64,000 bases of DNA from Halostella limicola. Its GTDB lineage: Archaea > Halobacteriota > Halobacteria > Halobacteriales > Natronoarchaeaceae. Of this stretch, positions 7,231 through 25,677 are shown one piece after another. The position numbers and the translations under genes are program-made. The notes under the pieces were generated by a model. That model was not told the origin of the DNA. It worked only from the letters and a program-made list of their open reading frames with translations, and ran no database searches. Where the stretch lies: the NCBI RefSeq assembly GCF_003675875.1, contig NZ_RCDI01000003.1, positions 248,001-312,000 of the forward strand, in the 5' to 3' direction. Within the stretch, counting starts at the first letter, position 1. Every line of letters starts with the position of its first letter.

Positions 7231-8382
7231 TCACACCCGTCCCCACGCGTCCTCGTCGACGGGGAGCCCGTCGTCAGAGTCGTCGTCGGGCGGGTCGCCC
7301 CCCGAGCCGCCGATCCCCTGCGGCCCCTCTCCAGCGCCGGCGACGCCGTCCGTCGCGCCGACGCTGGGCCACGCGATCTCCTCCCACTCGCCGGTCCTGC
7401 AGTAGTAGTACACCACGTCGCCGTCGAAGACGGCGAACAGGTCCCACCGCTCGTCGTGGACGACCCGCCCGTCGCCGTCGATAGCCACGTCCACCACGTC
7501 CTCCAAGGTGTTCAGTCGGACGCGGTCCCGGTCGATCCACATCGGGATGGACCCCGCGGAGATCCACTCCGCGTGACGCTTCCGGTGGATCTCCTGTCGG
7601 ATCGCGTCGACGTCGACCGCCGCCTCGCGGCGCCGCCAGAGGGTCGCGGCGGCGGCGGCCGCGCCCCCGGCGAGCGCGAGGAGCGACAGCACGGTCGGGT
7701 AGTCGGGGGCCGCGTCGGCCCGACGCGAAACCGTCGTCCGGTGGGTTCTGTCGGCCGCGAGGTCGCCGTCGACCCAGTAGGCGCGGTCGGTCACCTGCAG
7801 GGGCGCGCTCGCGGCGAGTTCGCCGACGTAGTCGCCGGTGTCGTACGTCGTCACCACGCGGAGCCGGACCTCCATCGACCCGACGTGCGAGAGCCGGTGT
7901 GCGGTCTCGTTGACGCGCTCGGCGAGCGCCGGCACGTCGACGGTGGCGGTCGCGGTGGCCGTCCCGTTCGTCGCCTCCGTCGTCTCCGAGACGAGCACCC
8001 GCGAACTGTTCCAGTACGGCTCCCCGTCTGCCGTCGCGCGGAGCTCCAGGCGGACCTCGTGAGTCACGCTCGTCCCATCGGGGGCACGCGTCGTCGGCGT
8101 CAGCGTCAGCTCCGGCGCGTCTCGCCGCAGGTATCGCGGGCTGTTCTCCAGTCGCGTCCCCGTCTCCCAGGCGGAGTCCTCGGCCGTGACGACCGCGCTC
8201 GTCTCCACCGACGTCGACACCGTCTGGACGTTCCGTTCCTCCGTCACCGTGGTCGACGAGTTCGCGACCGCCGCGCCGGCGGCGGCGAGCGCTACGAGCG
8301 CGACGACGGCGAGCGCGACCGCCAGCTCCCGCCCGTACCGCGCCGCGAGGAGTCGAACCCGCGGCGGGAGGTCGCCGCTCAT
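7231..8382 (-). CDS. DUF5305-type membrane protein of the signal peptidase/DUF1102 cassette
   Basis: A 383-residue protein with a membrane segment near the N terminus (about residues 18-40). A beta-rich Thr/Val outer domain follows (about 45-215, with three N-x-S/T sequons), then a second membrane segment (about 225-247). The cytoplasmic tail (VDVDAIRQEIHRKRHAEWI onward) ends in Gly/Asp. The organisation matches the haloarchaeal DUF5305 family as I remember it. It is the last gene of the minus-strand cassette. Function is unknown; its position behind a signal peptidase and DUF1102-like proteins suggests an accessory or anchor for assembly at the cell surface. Confidence 0.75.
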   Translation of the reverse strand: MSGDLPPRVRLLAARYGRELAVALAVVALVALAAAGAAVANSSTTVTEERNVQTVSTSVETSAVVTAEDSAWETGTRLENSPRYLRRDAPELTLTPTTRAPDGTSVTHEVRLELRATADGEPYWNSSRVLVSETTEATNGTATATATVDVPALAERVNETAHRLSHVGSMEVRLRVVTTYDTGDYVGELAASAPLQVTDRAYWVDGDLAADRTHRTTVSRRADAAPDYPTVLSLLALAGGAAAAAATLWRRREAAVDVDAIRQEIHRKRHAEWISAGSIPMWIDRDRVRLNTLEDVVDVAIDGDGRVVHDERWDLFAVFDGDVVYYYCRTGEWEEIAWPSVGATDGVAGAGEGPQGIGGSGGDPPDDDSDDGLPVDEDAWGRV

Positions 8383-8450
8383 CGCATCACCACGGCGTCC
8401 GCCGTTCGGCGCGGACTGCGAACCGTCGTGTCGGTGTCGTCCCGTAGCAT
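8379..8450 (-). CDS. Possible 23-residue bridging ORF between signal peptidase and DUF5305 genes
   Basis: An ATG begins 1 base after the signal peptidase stop codon. The frame runs 23 codons (MLRDDTDTTVRSPRRTADAV then VMR) to a TGA that overlaps the ATG of the DUF5305 gene (ATGA). Both junctions suit translational coupling. The peptide is basic in the middle, has no membrane segment and resembles nothing I know. It may be a real peptide, a coupling device that carries ribosomes to the next gene, or chance. Confidence 0.3.
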   Translation of the reverse strand: MLRDDTDTTVRSPRRTADAVVMR

Positions 8451-8451
8451 G

Positions 8452-9573
8452 TTACATCAACCTCCGTCGGAGCCGCGCGACCGCCGACCGAGCCCCGGCT
8501 GTCGACCGGAGTCGCTGGTCCCCCACGCCGACGGCCGCCGCGGCGAGCACGCCCGCGAGCGCCCCGACCACGGCGTCGACCGCGGCGACGGCGAGCAGGG
8601 GGTGGACCCTGTGCAGCGCCGTCAGCGTCGACGCGGGCAGCACCGCCAGGTAACGACGCTCGGACACCGCCCGGCGATACTCGCCCTCGGCGTCGCCACC
8701 GTCCAGCGTGACGGTCGTCGCCGCCGTCCCGCCTGCCGGGACGCCGTGTCGGCGCGTCTCGATCGACACCCCGTCGCTCGCCGGTTCGAGCAGGACGAGG
8801 GTCGGGACCGCGCCGTCGTTGTGCACCTCGTAGGTCACCGTGGCTCGCTCCCCCGGTTCGACGGCCAGCGGGTCCTCCTCGGTCCGGTCGCCGACGACCA
8901 CGCCGTACTCGGTCGCGCCCGAGGGGACCAGCATCGCCGCCGTCGTCGGAACGACCACGACGAGCAGCAGGAGGCCGAACAGCACGCGACGGTCGATCAC
9001 CCCGGGACGGCGCCGCGTCCTGCTCGTGGCGCGCTCCTGCTTTCCGGTGACGCCGGCGATGGCGAACAGCAGGAGACCGACCGCGACGAGCACTCCCCCG
9101 ACGCCGGCGCCGGCGACCGGCCCGGCGACGGTCGCGACGGCCCCCTCGACGGCCATGATCGCGGTTCCGAGGTGCGGTATCGTGACCACGCTGCCGCCGA
9201 CCTGCAGTGCCTTCGCGCGAACCTGTGCGTCGCCGACCGGAGGCTCGTCGGAATCCTGGTCCGTGAACGGGTTCGCGTCGCCGCGAGTGACGTACCCCTC
9301 CGGCGTCTCGTCCACGACGCGGTGGGTCGTCAGGCCGCCGCCGTGGAGGGTCCGTGCCTCGAACACGATCACGTCGCCCTCCTCGACGTCGCCCGCCAGC
9401 GCGGACGGCACGGCGACGAAGCCGTCGCCGGCCTCTATCGTCGGCTCCATGCTGTCGGTCGCCACGTAGCCGAGCAGCATCGGTTGGCCGAGCGCCTGCC
9501 CCACGAGCAGCGAGACGATCACGACGACGGCGACCGCCTCGAACGCCGCGGTCGCGGCCGACCGGAGCGTCAC
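8452..9573 (-). CDS. Signal peptidase I, archaeal Ser-His type, with long C-terminal extension
   Basis: A 373-residue S26 signal peptidase. Membrane anchor at residues 11-30, nucleophile Ser41 in TDSMEPTI, and catalytic His84 in TTHRVV where bacterial LepB has Lys. The Ser-His pair is shared by archaeal, ER (Sec11) and SipW-type enzymes. YVTRGDANPFTD (94-105) is the conserved third box. After the usual catalytic core come further hydrophobic segments, a beta-type domain of about 100 residues (roughly 230-330) and a C-terminal membrane helix. The protein is therefore much longer than ordinary archaeal signal peptidases. Between DUF1102-like substrates and DUF5305, it is probably a dedicated processing enzyme, as SipW is for TasA. 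Confidence 0.88.
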   Translation of the reverse strand: MTLRSAATAAFEAVAVVVIVSLLVGQALGQPMLLGYVATDSMEPTIEAGDGFVAVPSALAGDVEEGDVIVFEARTLHGGGLTTHRVVDETPEGYVTRGDANPFTDQDSDEPPVGDAQVRAKALQVGGSVVTIPHLGTAIMAVEGAVATVAGPVAGAGVGGVLVAVGLLLFAIAGVTGKQERATSRTRRRPGVIDRRVLFGLLLLVVVVPTTAAMLVPSGATEYGVVVGDRTEEDPLAVEPGERATVTYEVHNDGAVPTLVLLEPASDGVSIETRRHGVPAGGTAATTVTLDGGDAEGEYRRAVSERRYLAVLPASTLTALHRVHPLLAVAAVDAVVGALAGVLAAAAVGVGDQRLRSTAGARSAVARLRRRLM

Positions 9574-9586
9574 GGTCGTCCCCCCG

Positions 9587-10744
9587 TCATCGTTTCCGCC
9601 ACCTCACCAGTGCGAAACCGGACGCCGCGAGCGGCACGAGCGCGAGCGCCGACGCCCCGTACCTCGTCGGTCCGTCGGCCGGAAGCAGGGCGTCGTCCCC
9701 GACCGCGACCGTCCCGGCGTCCGTCCCGCTCACGCTCACCGCGAACCGCCCGGACCGCTCGACGCGACGCTCGAAGTCGACGGTGCGGCGCTCGCCGGCC
9801 GGCACGGCGACGCGCTTCGTCTCCACGACGGTCCCGGCGACCGCCAGCTCCGCGGTGAAGACGCCGCTCGCGTTCCCCTCGTTCGCGACCGTCGCCGCGA
9901 CCGCGAGGCGGTCGCCGGGTCGCAGGTCGCGGTCGCTCACCGTGACGTTCGTCACCGAGAACGACGGCGCGGGGTCGCTCGCCGGCGACACCGTGACGAC
10001 AGTCGCGTCTGCGTCGACGACGCCGACCTCGTACTCCCCGGCCCCCTGGAACCGCCGGACGAAGGTCACCTCGCGCGTCTCGCCGGGCGCGACCCACACC
10101 AGGCGTTCGTCGACGACGACGCCGTCGACGCGGAGCCGGACGGGGTGCTGGACGATCCGCTCGCCCACGTTCGAGACCGTCGCCGTCACTTCGACGGCCT
10201 CGCCGGCCCGGACCGCGGTTCGGTTGAACCGCGCGTCAACCGTTATCTCGCGGTCGACCTCGTCCTCGGCGTCGCCCGGGTCGCGCTCTCCGCACCGAGC
10301 GACGACGGTGACCGAATCGAGCGAGAGTTCGTCTCCGTGGCGCGCGTCCGCGCGAACGCCGACGGCTATCGTCTCGCCCGGCGACACCCCAGCGGCGTTC
10401 GAACGGCCGTCGATCGACCGCGACGGGTCGCCGCCGCGGTAGAACGTGACGCCCTCGGCGTCGTGCACGACGGCGATCCGCGCCCTCTCGTCGCAGGTCG
10501 ATGTGACCGTGAACACGTCGTCGACGGTCGTCTCCGCCTCGTCGTTCAGCGACTCAAGCGTGACGGCGATCTCGCCGTCCTCGACGCTGGCGTACTCGCC
10601 GTTCGGCCCGTCGTGCGGGGCGAGGGTGACCGCCTCGTTTCGGTCCTCGCCGACGCTGCTCGCACCGGTGGAAACGGCTCCGCCGACGGCGGCGGCTATC
10701 CCCGCGAGAACCAGGAGTCCGACGATGAGTTGCCGTCGTTTCAT
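9587..10744 (-). CDS. DUF1102-like secreted protein with CARDB repeats and C-terminal anchor
   Basis: A 385-residue surface protein. A signal segment (residues 6-28) is followed by a domain carrying LNDEAETTVDDVFTVT (66-81). This matches the motif LNDNAVTTVAPAFTVT of the next protein upstream, so the two are related. Two CARDB-type beta domains follow (about 165-265 and 268-350, each with VTATVSNVGE or VAATVANEGN). A membrane helix at about 362-380 ends in the basic RWRKR. This suits a membrane-bound adaptor or tip that shares the fibre-subunit fold. It is 13 bases upstream of the signal peptidase gene, in one operon. Confidence 0.8.
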   Translation of the reverse strand: MKRRQLIVGLLVLAGIAAAVGGAVSTGASSVGEDRNEAVTLAPHDGPNGEYASVEDGEIAVTLESLNDEAETTVDDVFTVTSTCDERARIAVVHDAEGVTFYRGGDPSRSIDGRSNAAGVSPGETIAVGVRADARHGDELSLDSVTVVARCGERDPGDAEDEVDREITVDARFNRTAVRAGEAVEVTATVSNVGERIVQHPVRLRVDGVVVDERLVWVAPGETREVTFVRRFQGAGEYEVGVVDADATVVTVSPASDPAPSFSVTNVTVSDRDLRPGDRLAVAATVANEGNASGVFTAELAVAGTVVETKRVAVPAGERRTVDFERRVERSGRFAVSVSGTDAGTVAVGDDALLPADGPTRYGASALALVPLAASGFALVRWRKR

Positions 10745-10777
10745 TGCTCGGGTCGCTGATCGGACGAGTCGGTCCCG

Positions 10778-11314
10778 TCAGGCCTGGTACTTCGACTCGT
10801 CGGCCTCGATCCGGATGACGTTCGCGTTGGTCGGCGTCCCGGTGTCGGAGTCGACTTCCATGTCGACGGTGACGCTTCCACCGGAGGTGAGGTTGTTGTC
10901 GTCGCCCGATGCCGGGTAGGTGGTCATGTCATGGCTGTTCGTGTTCGAGGTGAAGGAGAAAGCCGACACCTCCGAATTATTGTCGGTGTCCATCGCGCGG
11001 ACCCGGACCGCGACGTTCTGGCCGCCGTTGTTGGTGACCGTGAAGGCCGGGGCCACGGTCGTGACGGCGTTGTCGTTCAGGTTGTCGAGATTGAACTTCA
11101 GTTCGCTACTGCTGTTGCCGTCGTTGGTCACGAGGGCGGTGTCCGCGTTCGCGCTGAGCTGGAGCAGGGTGGACGAGTTGTTGTCGTCAGTGACGGAGAT
11201 GTTCACCGTTCGGTCAGCCTCCACTTGGCTGAACGCGCCGGAGCCGAACGCGGCGCCGCCGCCGACCGTTGCCGTTGCCAGTCCGATCAGAAGGTTACGT
11301 CGATTCGTTCTCAT
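10778..11314 (-). CDS. DUF1102-like Asn-rich secreted subunit, candidate TasA/bundling-pilin type fibre protein
   Basis: A 178-residue exported protein, first gene of the minus-strand cassette. The N terminus (RRNLLIGLATATVGGG, then GSGAFSQVEADR at 24-35) resembles SipW-dependent signal regions of TasA/CalY-type proteins. The mature part is beta-type and rich in Asn, Ser and Thr, with several N-glycosylation sequons. That composition is unlike most proteins in the window. Motif LNDNAVTTVAPAFTVT (79-94) is shared with the following gene product. TasA-family subunits polymerise into matrix fibres or bundling pili; that this protein does so is inference from the signal type, fold-like composition and the signal peptidase in the operon. 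Confidence 0.78.
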   Translation of the reverse strand: MRTNRRNLLIGLATATVGGGAAFGSGAFSQVEADRTVNISVTDDNNSSTLLQLSANADTALVTNDGNSSSELKFNLDNLNDNAVTTVAPAFTVTNNGGQNVAVRVRAMDTDNNSEVSAFSFTSNTNSHDMTTYPASGDDNNLTSGGSVTVDMEVDSDTGTPTNANVIRIEADESKYQA

Positions 11315-11332
11315 GATTTCGCCGAGCGGGTA

Positions 11333-11392
11333 AGGTAATATTACCTCGCTCCTGTGTCACTACAGAAACTACTAGCACTTTTTATTTTCCCT
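11333..11392 (-). promoter_or_regulatory. Promoter of the DUF1102 cassette with a 14-base palindrome
   Basis: On the minus strand an A-rich TATA-like element (gaaaataaaaagt, about 11378-11390) lies where a promoter for the gene starting at 11314 would be. A perfect palindrome AGGTAATATTACCT occupies 11333-11346, close to the predicted transcription start and 19 bases before the start codon. That is a good position for a repressor site. The transcription start is inferred, not observed. Confidence 0.5.
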
Positions 11393-11419
11393 TTGAACAG
11401 AACGAGGAATTGATTCTTA

Positions 11420-11438
11420 AGGTATTATTTAGTATCCT
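11420..11438. promoter_or_regulatory. Second, imperfect inverted repeat in the divergent intergenic region
   Basis: AGGTATTATTTAGTATCCT forms an imperfect inverted repeat whose left half begins like the 14-base palindrome 74 bases away (AGGTAAT). It lies between the divergent DUF1102 genes, in the least GC-rich stretch of this part of the window. It may bind the same regulator, or simply be the TATA region for the plus-strand gene at 11542. Confidence 0.35.
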
Positions 11439-11541
11439 CATCTCGAAAGGAATAACGGGAGCGGTACAGAAGATAGTAAAATGACAAGAGCGGAACGACG
11501 CTCACAGGCGCCCTGACGTCGGGAGACACGGAGATAGATCC

Positions 11542-12091
11542 ATGAGAGTTCTCCGAACGATCGGCATGGCGTTTCTGCTCGCCGGTGCTCTCTGCATCGT
11601 CGCGGGGAGCGGCGCGTTCGACGGCGTGGCCGCTGACCGGGGAACGGCAGTGGAGACGGTGCCCGACGAGAGCGCGTACGTGGGCGTCGACTATCCCGCG
11701 GCCGACCAGTCGAGAACCGTCCGACTGCGTAGCGAGAACGCGGACGGCGGCGGGGGGGTGTTTCTTCGGGATTTGCCTCAACTACCGCTACGACGATGTG
11801 GAGGTCGCCCTGTTTTCTGACCAGACGCCGACCGGGAACCTGTCGGTCGACAACGTCGACGTACAGGTAACGGGCGACGACATCACCGGCGGAGACGGCG
11901 TGCGCGCGGAGTCGACGCAAGACGGGCTCCGTGTCGTCCTCGGTGACTTCCGGTGTCCGTCGAGCGGTAGTTTCGGCAGTGGCGACCAGCAATCAGCCGC
12001 CGCTACGGTCGTCATCTCTTTCGAGGCGAGCGACGCGAACGTGGGAGTCGGCCTCGAACGAGAAGTAACGGTAGAGTGCGTCCCCGACTGA
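11542..12091 (+). pseudogene. Frameshifted DUF1102-like secreted protein, divergent from the cassette
   Basis: The first frame begins at ATG 11542 with a signal segment and GSGAFDGVAADR (residues 22-33), matching GSGAF-x2-V-x-ADR in the neighbouring fibre-subunit candidate. It runs into a run of seven G at 11752-11758, after which it ends at 11820 in unrelated sequence. The frame one base over continues sensibly (CFFGICLNYRYDDVEVALF onward) to a stop at 12089-12091. Six G would give one uninterrupted protein of about 182 residues with four Cys. It may be a mutation, a sequencing error in the homopolymer, or an on/off switch by slipped-strand change. I list it as broken in this sequence. Confidence 0.72.
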
Positions 12092-12184
12092 TCGCGTGGC
12101 ACGGCGACTTACACTCGCTGCGTGCGATCCTCACAGATAGCCACCGAGGAAACACTGAAAGACCGCCCCGCCGAACCAACGGCC

Positions 12185-13285
12185 ATGACCCTACAGGTCG
12201 GCGTACTCGGGTACCGGTTCATGGGCAAGGCCCACGCGAACGCGCTGGCGCGCCTGCCGATGTTCTTCCCGGACGCGCCGGACGTCGAGCGCGACGTGAT
12301 CGTCGGCCGCGACGAGGAGGCGCTTGCTGACGCCGCAGACCGCCTCGGCTTCTCCCGCACCGCGACGGACTGGCGCGACGTGATCGAGGAGGTCGACGTC
12401 TTCTACAACCTCGGACCCAACCACGTTCACGCCGAGCCCTCGATCGCCGCGCTCGACACCGGCACGCCCGTGTTCTGCGAGAAGCCGCTCGCGCCGACGC
12501 TGGAGTCGGCCCGCGAGATGCGCGACGCCGCGCGCGAGGCGGGCGTCCCGGCCGGCTGCGCGTTCAACTACCGCTTCGTCCCCGCGATCCAGTACGCGAA
12601 GAACCTGATCGAGGCGGGCGAACTCGGCGAGATACGGCACTTCCGCGGGACGTACCTCCAGGACTGGCTCGTCGACCCCGAAGCGCCGTGGTCGTGGCGC
12701 AACGACGAGGAGATGGCCGGCAGCGGTGCGCTTGGCGACCTCGGCGCCCACACGGTCGACCTCGCGCGCTTCCTCGTGGGCGACGTCGAGCGCGTGAGCG
12801 GACACCTGAAGACGTTCGTCGACGAACGGCCCGTCGAGGGCGAAGACGAGACCCGCCCGGTCACCGTCGACGACGCCTACAGCGCGCAGGCGGCGTTCGA
12901 GAACGGCGCGATGGGGACGTTCGAGGCCTCGCGGTTCGCGACCGGGCACAAGAACGACAACCGGATCGAGATCCACGGTTCGGAGGGGAGCCTCCGCTTC
13001 TCGCTGGAGCGGCTGAACGAACTCGAACTGCTCCGCGAGGGCGACCGCGGGTACGAGACGATCCTCGTCACGGACGAGGACGACCCCTACGTCGACCACT
13101 GGTGGCCGCCGGGCCACGTCATCGGCTGGGAGCACACGTTCGTCCACGAGAACTACGAGTTCCTCTCCGCCGTCGCGAACGACGGCGAGTTCACTCCCGG
13201 TTTCGAGGAGGGCTACGCCGCGCAGACGGTGCTGGACGCCATCGCGCGGAGTGATGAGAGCGGGGAGTGGATCGAGGTCGCCTAA
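12185..13285 (+). CDS. Gfo/Idh/MocA family dehydrogenase (second copy)
   Basis: A 366-residue oxidoreductase with Rossmann motif GVLGYRFMGKAH (6-17), the lysine motif EKPLAP (about 98-103) and the catalytic region GALGDLGAHTVDLARFL. I chose ATG 12185 rather than an in-frame start 63 bases upstream, because the family begins right at the Rossmann strand (MTLQVGVLG). It is only moderately like the first family member at 3812, so the two probably catalyse different steps of the same sugar or polyol route. The cassette of surface genes separates it from the isomerase gene at 6238. A partial copy of its last codons lies just downstream. Confidence 0.9.
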   Translation: MTLQVGVLGYRFMGKAHANALARLPMFFPDAPDVERDVIVGRDEEALADAADRLGFSRTATDWRDVIEEVDVFYNLGPNHVHAEPSIAALDTGTPVFCEKPLAPTLESAREMRDAAREAGVPAGCAFNYRFVPAIQYAKNLIEAGELGEIRHFRGTYLQDWLVDPEAPWSWRNDEEMAGSGALGDLGAHTVDLARFLVGDVERVSGHLKTFVDERPVEGEDETRPVTVDDAYSAQAAFENGAMGTFEASRFATGHKNDNRIEIHGSEGSLRFSLERLNELELLREGDRGYETILVTDEDDPYVDHWWPPGHVIGWEHTFVHENYEFLSAVANDGEFTPGFEEGYAAQTVLDAIARSDESGEWIEVA

Positions 13286-24903: not shown

Positions 24904-25677
24904 ATGGAAACTGTCACGCATCAGGGCCGCGAGACGGCCTACCGGCGCTCCGACAGGGGCGGTGACGGCGTACCGCTTCTCTGTGTTCACGGGAGCGGCG
25001 GCAACAAGGGCGTCTGGAAGTCGCAGTTCCGGCTCGCGGACGACCGCCCCGTCGTCGCGATGGACCTCTCCGGCCACGGCGACTCCGACGACATCGACGC
25101 CGACGAGGGGTACAGTACTCTCTCCGCGTACGCGGACGACGTGATCGCCGTCGCGGAGGAGACCGACGCCGGCGTCCTCGTCGGCAACTCGCTCGGGGGG
25201 GCCGTCGTCATGCACGTCGCGCTGGAGCGCGACTTCGACCCCGACGCGCTCGTCCTCGCGGGGACGGGCGCGCGGCTCTCGGTCAACGAGGACCTGCTCG
25301 GCTGGCTCGCGGACGACTTCGACCGCGCGGTCGAGTTCCTCCACGAACCCGGGAAGCTGTTCGACGACCCCGACGACGACCTGGTCGATCTCTCCGAGGC
25401 CGCCATGCGCGAGTGCGGCCGGGCGGTGACGGCGCGGGACTTCCGGACCTGCCACGGGTTCGACGTCAGGGATCGGGTGGACGAGATAGCGGTCCCCGCG
25501 CTCGCGATCGTCGGCGAGAACGACCGCCTCACGCCACCGTGGTTCCACGAGTTCCTCGCGGACGAACTGCCGGACGCCGCGCTGGCCGTCGTCGACGACG
25601 CGGCGCACCTCGCGATGCTGGAGCAGCCGGGGTCGTTCAACGCCGCGGTGAAGAACTTCCTGAGCGGTCTGGAGTAG
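24904..25677 (+). CDS. Alpha/beta hydrolase (serine nucleophile)
   Basis: A 257-residue hydrolase. Oxyanion region LLCVHGSGGNKGVW, nucleophile elbow GNSLGG (about residues 97-102), acid GENDRLTPP and a histidine in DAAHLAMLEQPG complete the triad. It could be an esterase, lipase or C-C hydrolase. The protein is not closely like the epoxide-hydrolase-type enzyme at 13358. It is convergent with panB; the substrate is unknown. Confidence 0.87.
   Translation: METVTHQGRETAYRRSDRGGDGVPLLCVHGSGGNKGVWKSQFRLADDRPVVAMDLSGHGDSDDIDADEGYSTLSAYADDVIAVAEETDAGVLVGNSLGGAVVMHVALERDFDPDALVLAGTGARLSVNEDLLGWLADDFDRAVEFLHEPGKLFDDPDDDLVDLSEAAMRECGRAVTARDFRTCHGFDVRDRVDEIAVPALAIVGENDRLTPPWFHEFLADELPDAALAVVDDAAHLAMLEQPGSFNAAVKNFLSGLE

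Follow-up and report, generated by a model that had tools for sequence, protein, structure and literature searches.

A probable TafA-less Tat-fimbria (Tafi) locus of the CARDB type in Halostella, related to the solved Natrinema Tafi pilus

The stretch of DNA analyzed (the window; 64,000 nucleotides from Halostella limicola, which has a 4.1 Mb genome) contains four minus-strand genes that together span positions 7231-11314. These genes, which an earlier note on this DNA had listed from the sequence and which were recovered as open reading frames at the same positions, encode a DUF5305 membrane protein of 383 aa (7231-8382), the conserved last gene of the module; a Ser-His type I signal peptidase of 373 aa, extended by an additional region at its C terminus (8452-9573); a CARDB protein of 385 aa (9587-10744); and a TafE-family pilin of 178 aa (10778-11314). 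The four genes are intact and share 49-63% identity with the genes of relatives, the values for the DUF5305 protein, the peptidase and the CARDB protein being 50-63%. A divergent TafC-like gene of the minor pilin or tip type lies on the plus strand (11542-12091) and is interrupted, with a G7 homopolymer (11752-11758) at its change of frame. In three loci of the same genus, the cassette is flanked by the same Gfo/Idh-type, serine-protease-type and TIM-barrel-type genes (names read from the sequences).

The pilin matched the NCBIfam TafE model with 106 bits (E 1.7e-30), and all 27 aligned pilins match this model. Its score is below the 155-bit cut-off of the TafE equivalog (NF052522), and it is also below the NCBI equivalog cut-off for TafA, so its assignment to a subunit type is tentative. 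The missed TafE cut-off is not an argument against Tafi, because the solved Natrinema Tafi pilin scores 77 bits on the same model; the 155-bit cut-off is specific to TafE of the Haloarcula type and does not delimit Tafi in general. No family was found by a Pfam search of the pilin. The name "DUF1102-like", under which the earlier note had placed these proteins, was dropped since the window proteins had no match to DUF1102 (PF06510) at E<=1 and one of the 27 pilin relatives matched it, weakly (0.044); the families matched instead were the NCBIfam families TafE, TafA and TafC.

A twin-arginine (Tat) signal is located at the N terminus of the pilin (MRTNRRNLLIGL), and both of its arginines are invariant in 27 of 27 aligned pilins, as are G26, A27, F28, A33 and R35. 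The mature protein is predicted to start at F28 (FSQVEADR). The GSGAF-x2-V-x-ADR motif at this position is common to the pilin and the divergent TafC-like gene, as had been noticed earlier. The Tat signal, which is defining for the system, and the frameshift of the plus-strand gene were both missed in the earlier note.

With the window pilin alone as query, the nearest sequence relative in the PDB is 9P0A (E 2.6e-13), entitled 'Structure of Natrinema sp. J7-2 Tafi pilus'. In a pairwise BLAST, only the first 116 residues were aligned, with 41% identity, and comparison of 9P0A with the profile of the 27 pilins (E 4.9e-34) extended the homology over the length of the mature protein. The Natrinema sp. 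J7-2 pilin is of the same family and likewise has a Tat signal and a mature start of the form AF-S-x-VEADRTV. Tat-fimbriae were described by Galeva et al. (2025, iScience 28:111793, doi 10.1016/j.isci.2025.111793), as cited in PMC12687288, and with 9P0A a Tafi pilus has been solved, so the statement that no characterized haloarchaeal example was known does not hold.

The AlphaFold2 model of the pilin, computed as a single chain, had a pLDDT of 71, with most of the N-terminal 41 residues below 50, and no donor strand could be seen in it. Foldseek searches with this model returned 9P0A at rank 1 (prob 0.98, E 0.013) and the archaeal bundling pilus AbpA of Pyrobaculum calidifontis (7UEG) at rank 2 (prob 0.87, E 0.022); the fold matches had a large rmsd (21 A), and none was at E<=0.001. 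The earlier note had proposed a comparison with AbpA and TasA, and of these two AbpA was found, whereas the 50 best matches listed did not include TasA. AbpA differs from the pilin in having 12% sequence identity to it and a thermophilic crenarchaeote as host. By way of 7UEG, the modeled fold fits the beta-sandwich that characterizes the TasA/AbpA superfamily of donor-strand fibres. The window also resembles the Bacillus TasA-TapA-SipW system in that a dedicated Ser-type peptidase and a fibre subunit are encoded in one operon. To our knowledge, Bacillus TasA has no Tat signal and no CARDB or DUF5305 partner.

The pilin had been called Asn-rich, and the asparagine content of the mature protein is indeed 13.9%, but three pilins from the same genus have 4-11%. 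The idea that this richness reflects N-glycosylation was tested and rejected: the window pilin has 6 sequons, compared with 5.1 in shuffled sequences, and the 27 relatives have 60, compared with 64.8, which is no enrichment.

The signal peptidase scored 58.1 bits on TIGR02228 (cut-off 51.85) and matched the SipW model weakly (33.7 bits). The serine in GYVATDSMEP and the histidine in LTTHRVV confirm that it is of the Ser-His type, and the THR[VI] motif is present in 80 of 80 members of the peptidase family. Its start codon is GTG and lies close to the end of the upstream gene.

The CARDB protein exceeded the Pfam cut-off for CARDB (49.9 bits, cut-off 22.7), with two matching stretches. It consists of a signal, an N-terminal domain that resembles the pilin, a pair of Ig-like CARDB domains and, at the C terminus, a hydrophobic helix with RWRKR after it. 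In an hhalign comparison (probability 97.6, E=3.8e-12), the pilin profile matched the CARDB-protein profile at residues 1-144, and therefore the LNDxAxTTVxxxFTVT sequence that the pilin and the CARDB protein had been seen to share goes beyond a chance resemblance. For the CARDB protein, AlphaFold2 gave a model (pLDDT 82.5) with an all-beta body, made up of a beta domain and a pair of Ig-like domains, and with a C-terminal helix at residues 370-384; a fold search with this model returned generic Ig-like matches only. These features suggest that the CARDB protein may be the base of the fibre: a pilin-like domain on a stalk, with the C terminus fixed in the membrane.

The DUF5305 protein scored 153.6 bits on PF17231 (cut-off 29), and its sequence gives a topology of an N-terminal hydrophobic segment, an outside domain, a second hydrophobic segment and a cytoplasmic tail. 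A further DUF5305 gene of the genome, outside the locus, was considered as a lost part of it and was rejected, as it sits in a separate mini-cluster that is non-Tat.

Gene order was compared among 46 haloarchaeal loci with 10 kb on each side, which were drawn from 84,980 species genomes by means of one peptide pattern that lies in the pilin alone. These loci included the signal peptidase in 44, DUF5305 in 41, a DUF7344 (HTH) regulator in 44, a TafC-like gene in 45 and an adaptor gene in 36 of the 46 cases, and the peptidase and DUF5305 genes were adjacent on one strand in 33. As the genomes, of 3-4 Mb, contain one to four DUF5305 genes each, the chance presence of such a gene within 20 kb is estimated at approximately 1% of loci. 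The same gene order, for which a search in haloarchaea had been suggested, is thus conserved in most relatives, and the genes are not found apart in the majority of them.

The gene order of the window (pilin, CARDB protein, signal peptidase, DUF5305) is also that of a Natrinema gari locus (L125), whose pilin is 100% identical to the 9P0A pilin over the 213 residues compared. At the Natrinema gari locus, the DUF7344 regulator and a TafC-like gene are located on the other strand; the window differs from the Natrinema Tafi locus in lacking a DUF7344 gene and in the frameshift of its TafC-like gene. The roles of main subunit and membrane-bound adaptor that had been proposed for the pilin and the CARDB protein agree with the Natrinema locus and are plausible. 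The earlier view of the genes as a fibre or pilus cassette with its own signal peptidase is borne out by the relation to the 9P0A Tafi pilus and to the 7UEG bundling pilus.

The TafA-TafE-TafC clusters of Haloarcula, Haloferax and Halorubrum (NF052520-22) resemble the window in having a TafE-family protein, a related peptidase, DUF5305, a divergent arrangement and a TafC-like partner. They differ in that TafA is present and that the adaptor has a low-complexity linker where the window protein has CARDB domains; furthermore, the TafC of the Haloarcula cluster carries a lectin-like Laminin_G_3 domain. A tree of 75 signal peptidases separated 17 loci with a linker-type adaptor, almost all of them with TafA, together with two metagenome-assembled loci by a branch with 100/99 support; the Haloarcula, Haloferax and Halorubrum peptidases are on the opposite side of this branch from that of the window, which groups with its genus at 100/100. 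To be counted as TafA, a protein had to pass the NCBIfam cut-off or score highly, because custom profiles proved unreliable in Natrinema loci, where they flagged the solved pilin itself as TafA. A genome-wide search found TafA absent from the organism of the window, a signal region alone giving a match (46.6 bits, against the 190-bit cut-off of NF052520). Tafi loci are thus of two layouts: those of Haloarcula, Haloferax and Halorubrum have TafA together with a linker-type adaptor, and in those of Natrialbaceae, Halostella and their kin the adaptor is of the CARDB type and TafA is usually missing.

The divergent gene had been taken as a plus-strand relative of the fibre proteins, and this relationship is real by homology, but the gene is not one open frame. 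Downstream of the G7 run the first frame (11542-11820) comes to a stop, and the rest of the homologous sequence is in another frame (11585-12091). At the same place in a locus of the same genus (L056, 13834-14577), an intact homologue shares 52% and 50% identity with the two pieces. The NCBIfam TafC model matched the window gene read across the break with E 1.2e-4 and the L056 homologue with E 1.5e-6. No full match was found when the DNA of the divergent gene was compared with four other genomes of the genus. The frame change may be due to a sequencing error, a broken gene or a slippage switch. TafC-like proteins share the AF motif, which, together with the lectin-like domain in Haloarcula, suggests that they may be tip or minor subunits.

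The broken TafC-like gene and the missing regulator leave room for a decaying Tafi cluster, in which the DUF7344 regulator and the TafC-like subunit have been lost and fibres are no longer made. The regulator gene is absent between the pilin and the divergent gene, no remnant of it was found in 10900-12400, and the nearest homologue elsewhere in the genome has 45% identity, compared with 73-88% among same-genus orthologues. However, the catalytic and Tat motifs of the four intact main genes are retained, another locus of the same genus (L055) has no recognizable TafC-like gene and still retains the rest, and an error in the homopolymer may account for the frameshift. Decay is therefore considered unlikely, although it deserves more weight than the alternatives that follow.

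Another explanation is that slippage at the G7 run switches the production of a TafC-like tip subunit. The run is located exactly at the frame change, runs of at least 7 are rare (four in the window, compared with approximately 48 in mononucleotide shuffles), and both halves of the gene still resemble intact relatives. In contrast, the run is not conserved, L056 carrying GGAGGCGGA at that site, another G7 run at 25195 sits within an intact hydrolase gene, and the frameshift is explained more simply by a homopolymer error in sequencing or assembly; a switch is thus very improbable. It is similarly hard to credit that the proteins are secreted without polymerizing, as part of a matrix or in association with the S-layer, and that they resemble pilins only through a shared signal and beta fold: the organism is known here from its genes and not from fibres, and the pilin model is of modest confidence, but the homology to the solved Tafi pilus spans the mature protein and the type of locus is the same. 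Also very improbable is the proposal of a single-pilin Tafi system that, having neither TafA nor a locus regulator, makes fibres constitutively and varies its TafC-like tip by slippage at the G7 run.

The locus is very probably a Tafi locus of Halostella, of the TafA-less CARDB type and thus of the same type as that of the solved Natrinema pilus, and working as proposed below. Homology, the Tat motif, the catalytic motifs and the conservation of gene order were all shown, as was the identity of the solved pilin with the product of a gene in an equivalent locus. As expected of the Tafi, the locus has a subunit with a Tat signal, homology of this subunit to a proven Tafi pilin and the gene neighborhood of a proven Tafi pilin gene.

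The pilin would be exported in a folded state through the Tat pathway, and its signal would be cut at GSGA|F, before F28, presumably by the dedicated Ser-His signal peptidase. The position of this cut was inferred with the help of 9P0A, in which 188 of 215 residues are modeled, which fits the removal of 27. By analogy with TasA, the N-terminal strand freed in this way (FSQVEADRTV) may insert into the beta sandwich of the neighboring subunit, so that a fibre is built. The donor strand of TasA is formed by residues 28-38, at the mature N terminus (PMC9674648). The CARDB protein would tie this fibre to the cell as its base by means of the C-terminal membrane helix, the DUF5305 protein could be a membrane partner of assembly, and the TafC-like protein, frameshifted in this copy, would serve as a tip or minor subunit.

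In conclusion, the analysis adds the genus Halostella to the range of a surface structure that was described only recently. The kind of system is already known and has a solved relative, so that what the window adds are small local differences; apart from the absent regulator gene and the out-of-frame accessory gene, this copy is ordinary. As far as was found, no individual role for the CARDB protein, DUF5305, the TafC-like protein or the DUF7344 regulator could be located in the literature, and the locus counts make each conserved companion gene a concrete target. The pilin-like domain of the CARDB protein provides a testable idea of how the fibre may be anchored.

The window lacks a DUF7344-type regulator gene at 11315-11541, the interval between the TafE-family pilin gene and the divergent TafC-like gene; in nearly all relatives, such a regulator sits between, or adjoins, these two genes. 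Homopolymer runs of at least 7 nt were strongly avoided across the whole window, with 4 observed versus about 48 in mononucleotide shuffles.

The Tafi locus of another Halostella genome (L056 in G128) carries a membrane protein-like gene of 613 aa (L056 10875-12716) between the genes encoding the CARDB protein and the pilin, the only insertion of such kind seen within the genus.

A second cluster, separate from the Tafi locus of the window, was located on another contig of the same genome (L152 6174-9729, about G000:C2:968170-971730), with all genes on the same strand. It encodes a pilin-like protein whose signal (MQRKAVLVIGT...GSAAF) is not of the Tat type, together with a Ser-His signal peptidase and proteins of the TafC-like and DUF5305 kinds. 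The cluster appears to be a paralogue of the Tafi locus that depends on Sec. Six TafE-family pilin genes were arranged in tandem within a single locus of genome G075 (L072 6732-11569, G075:C3), which suggests diversification of subunits.
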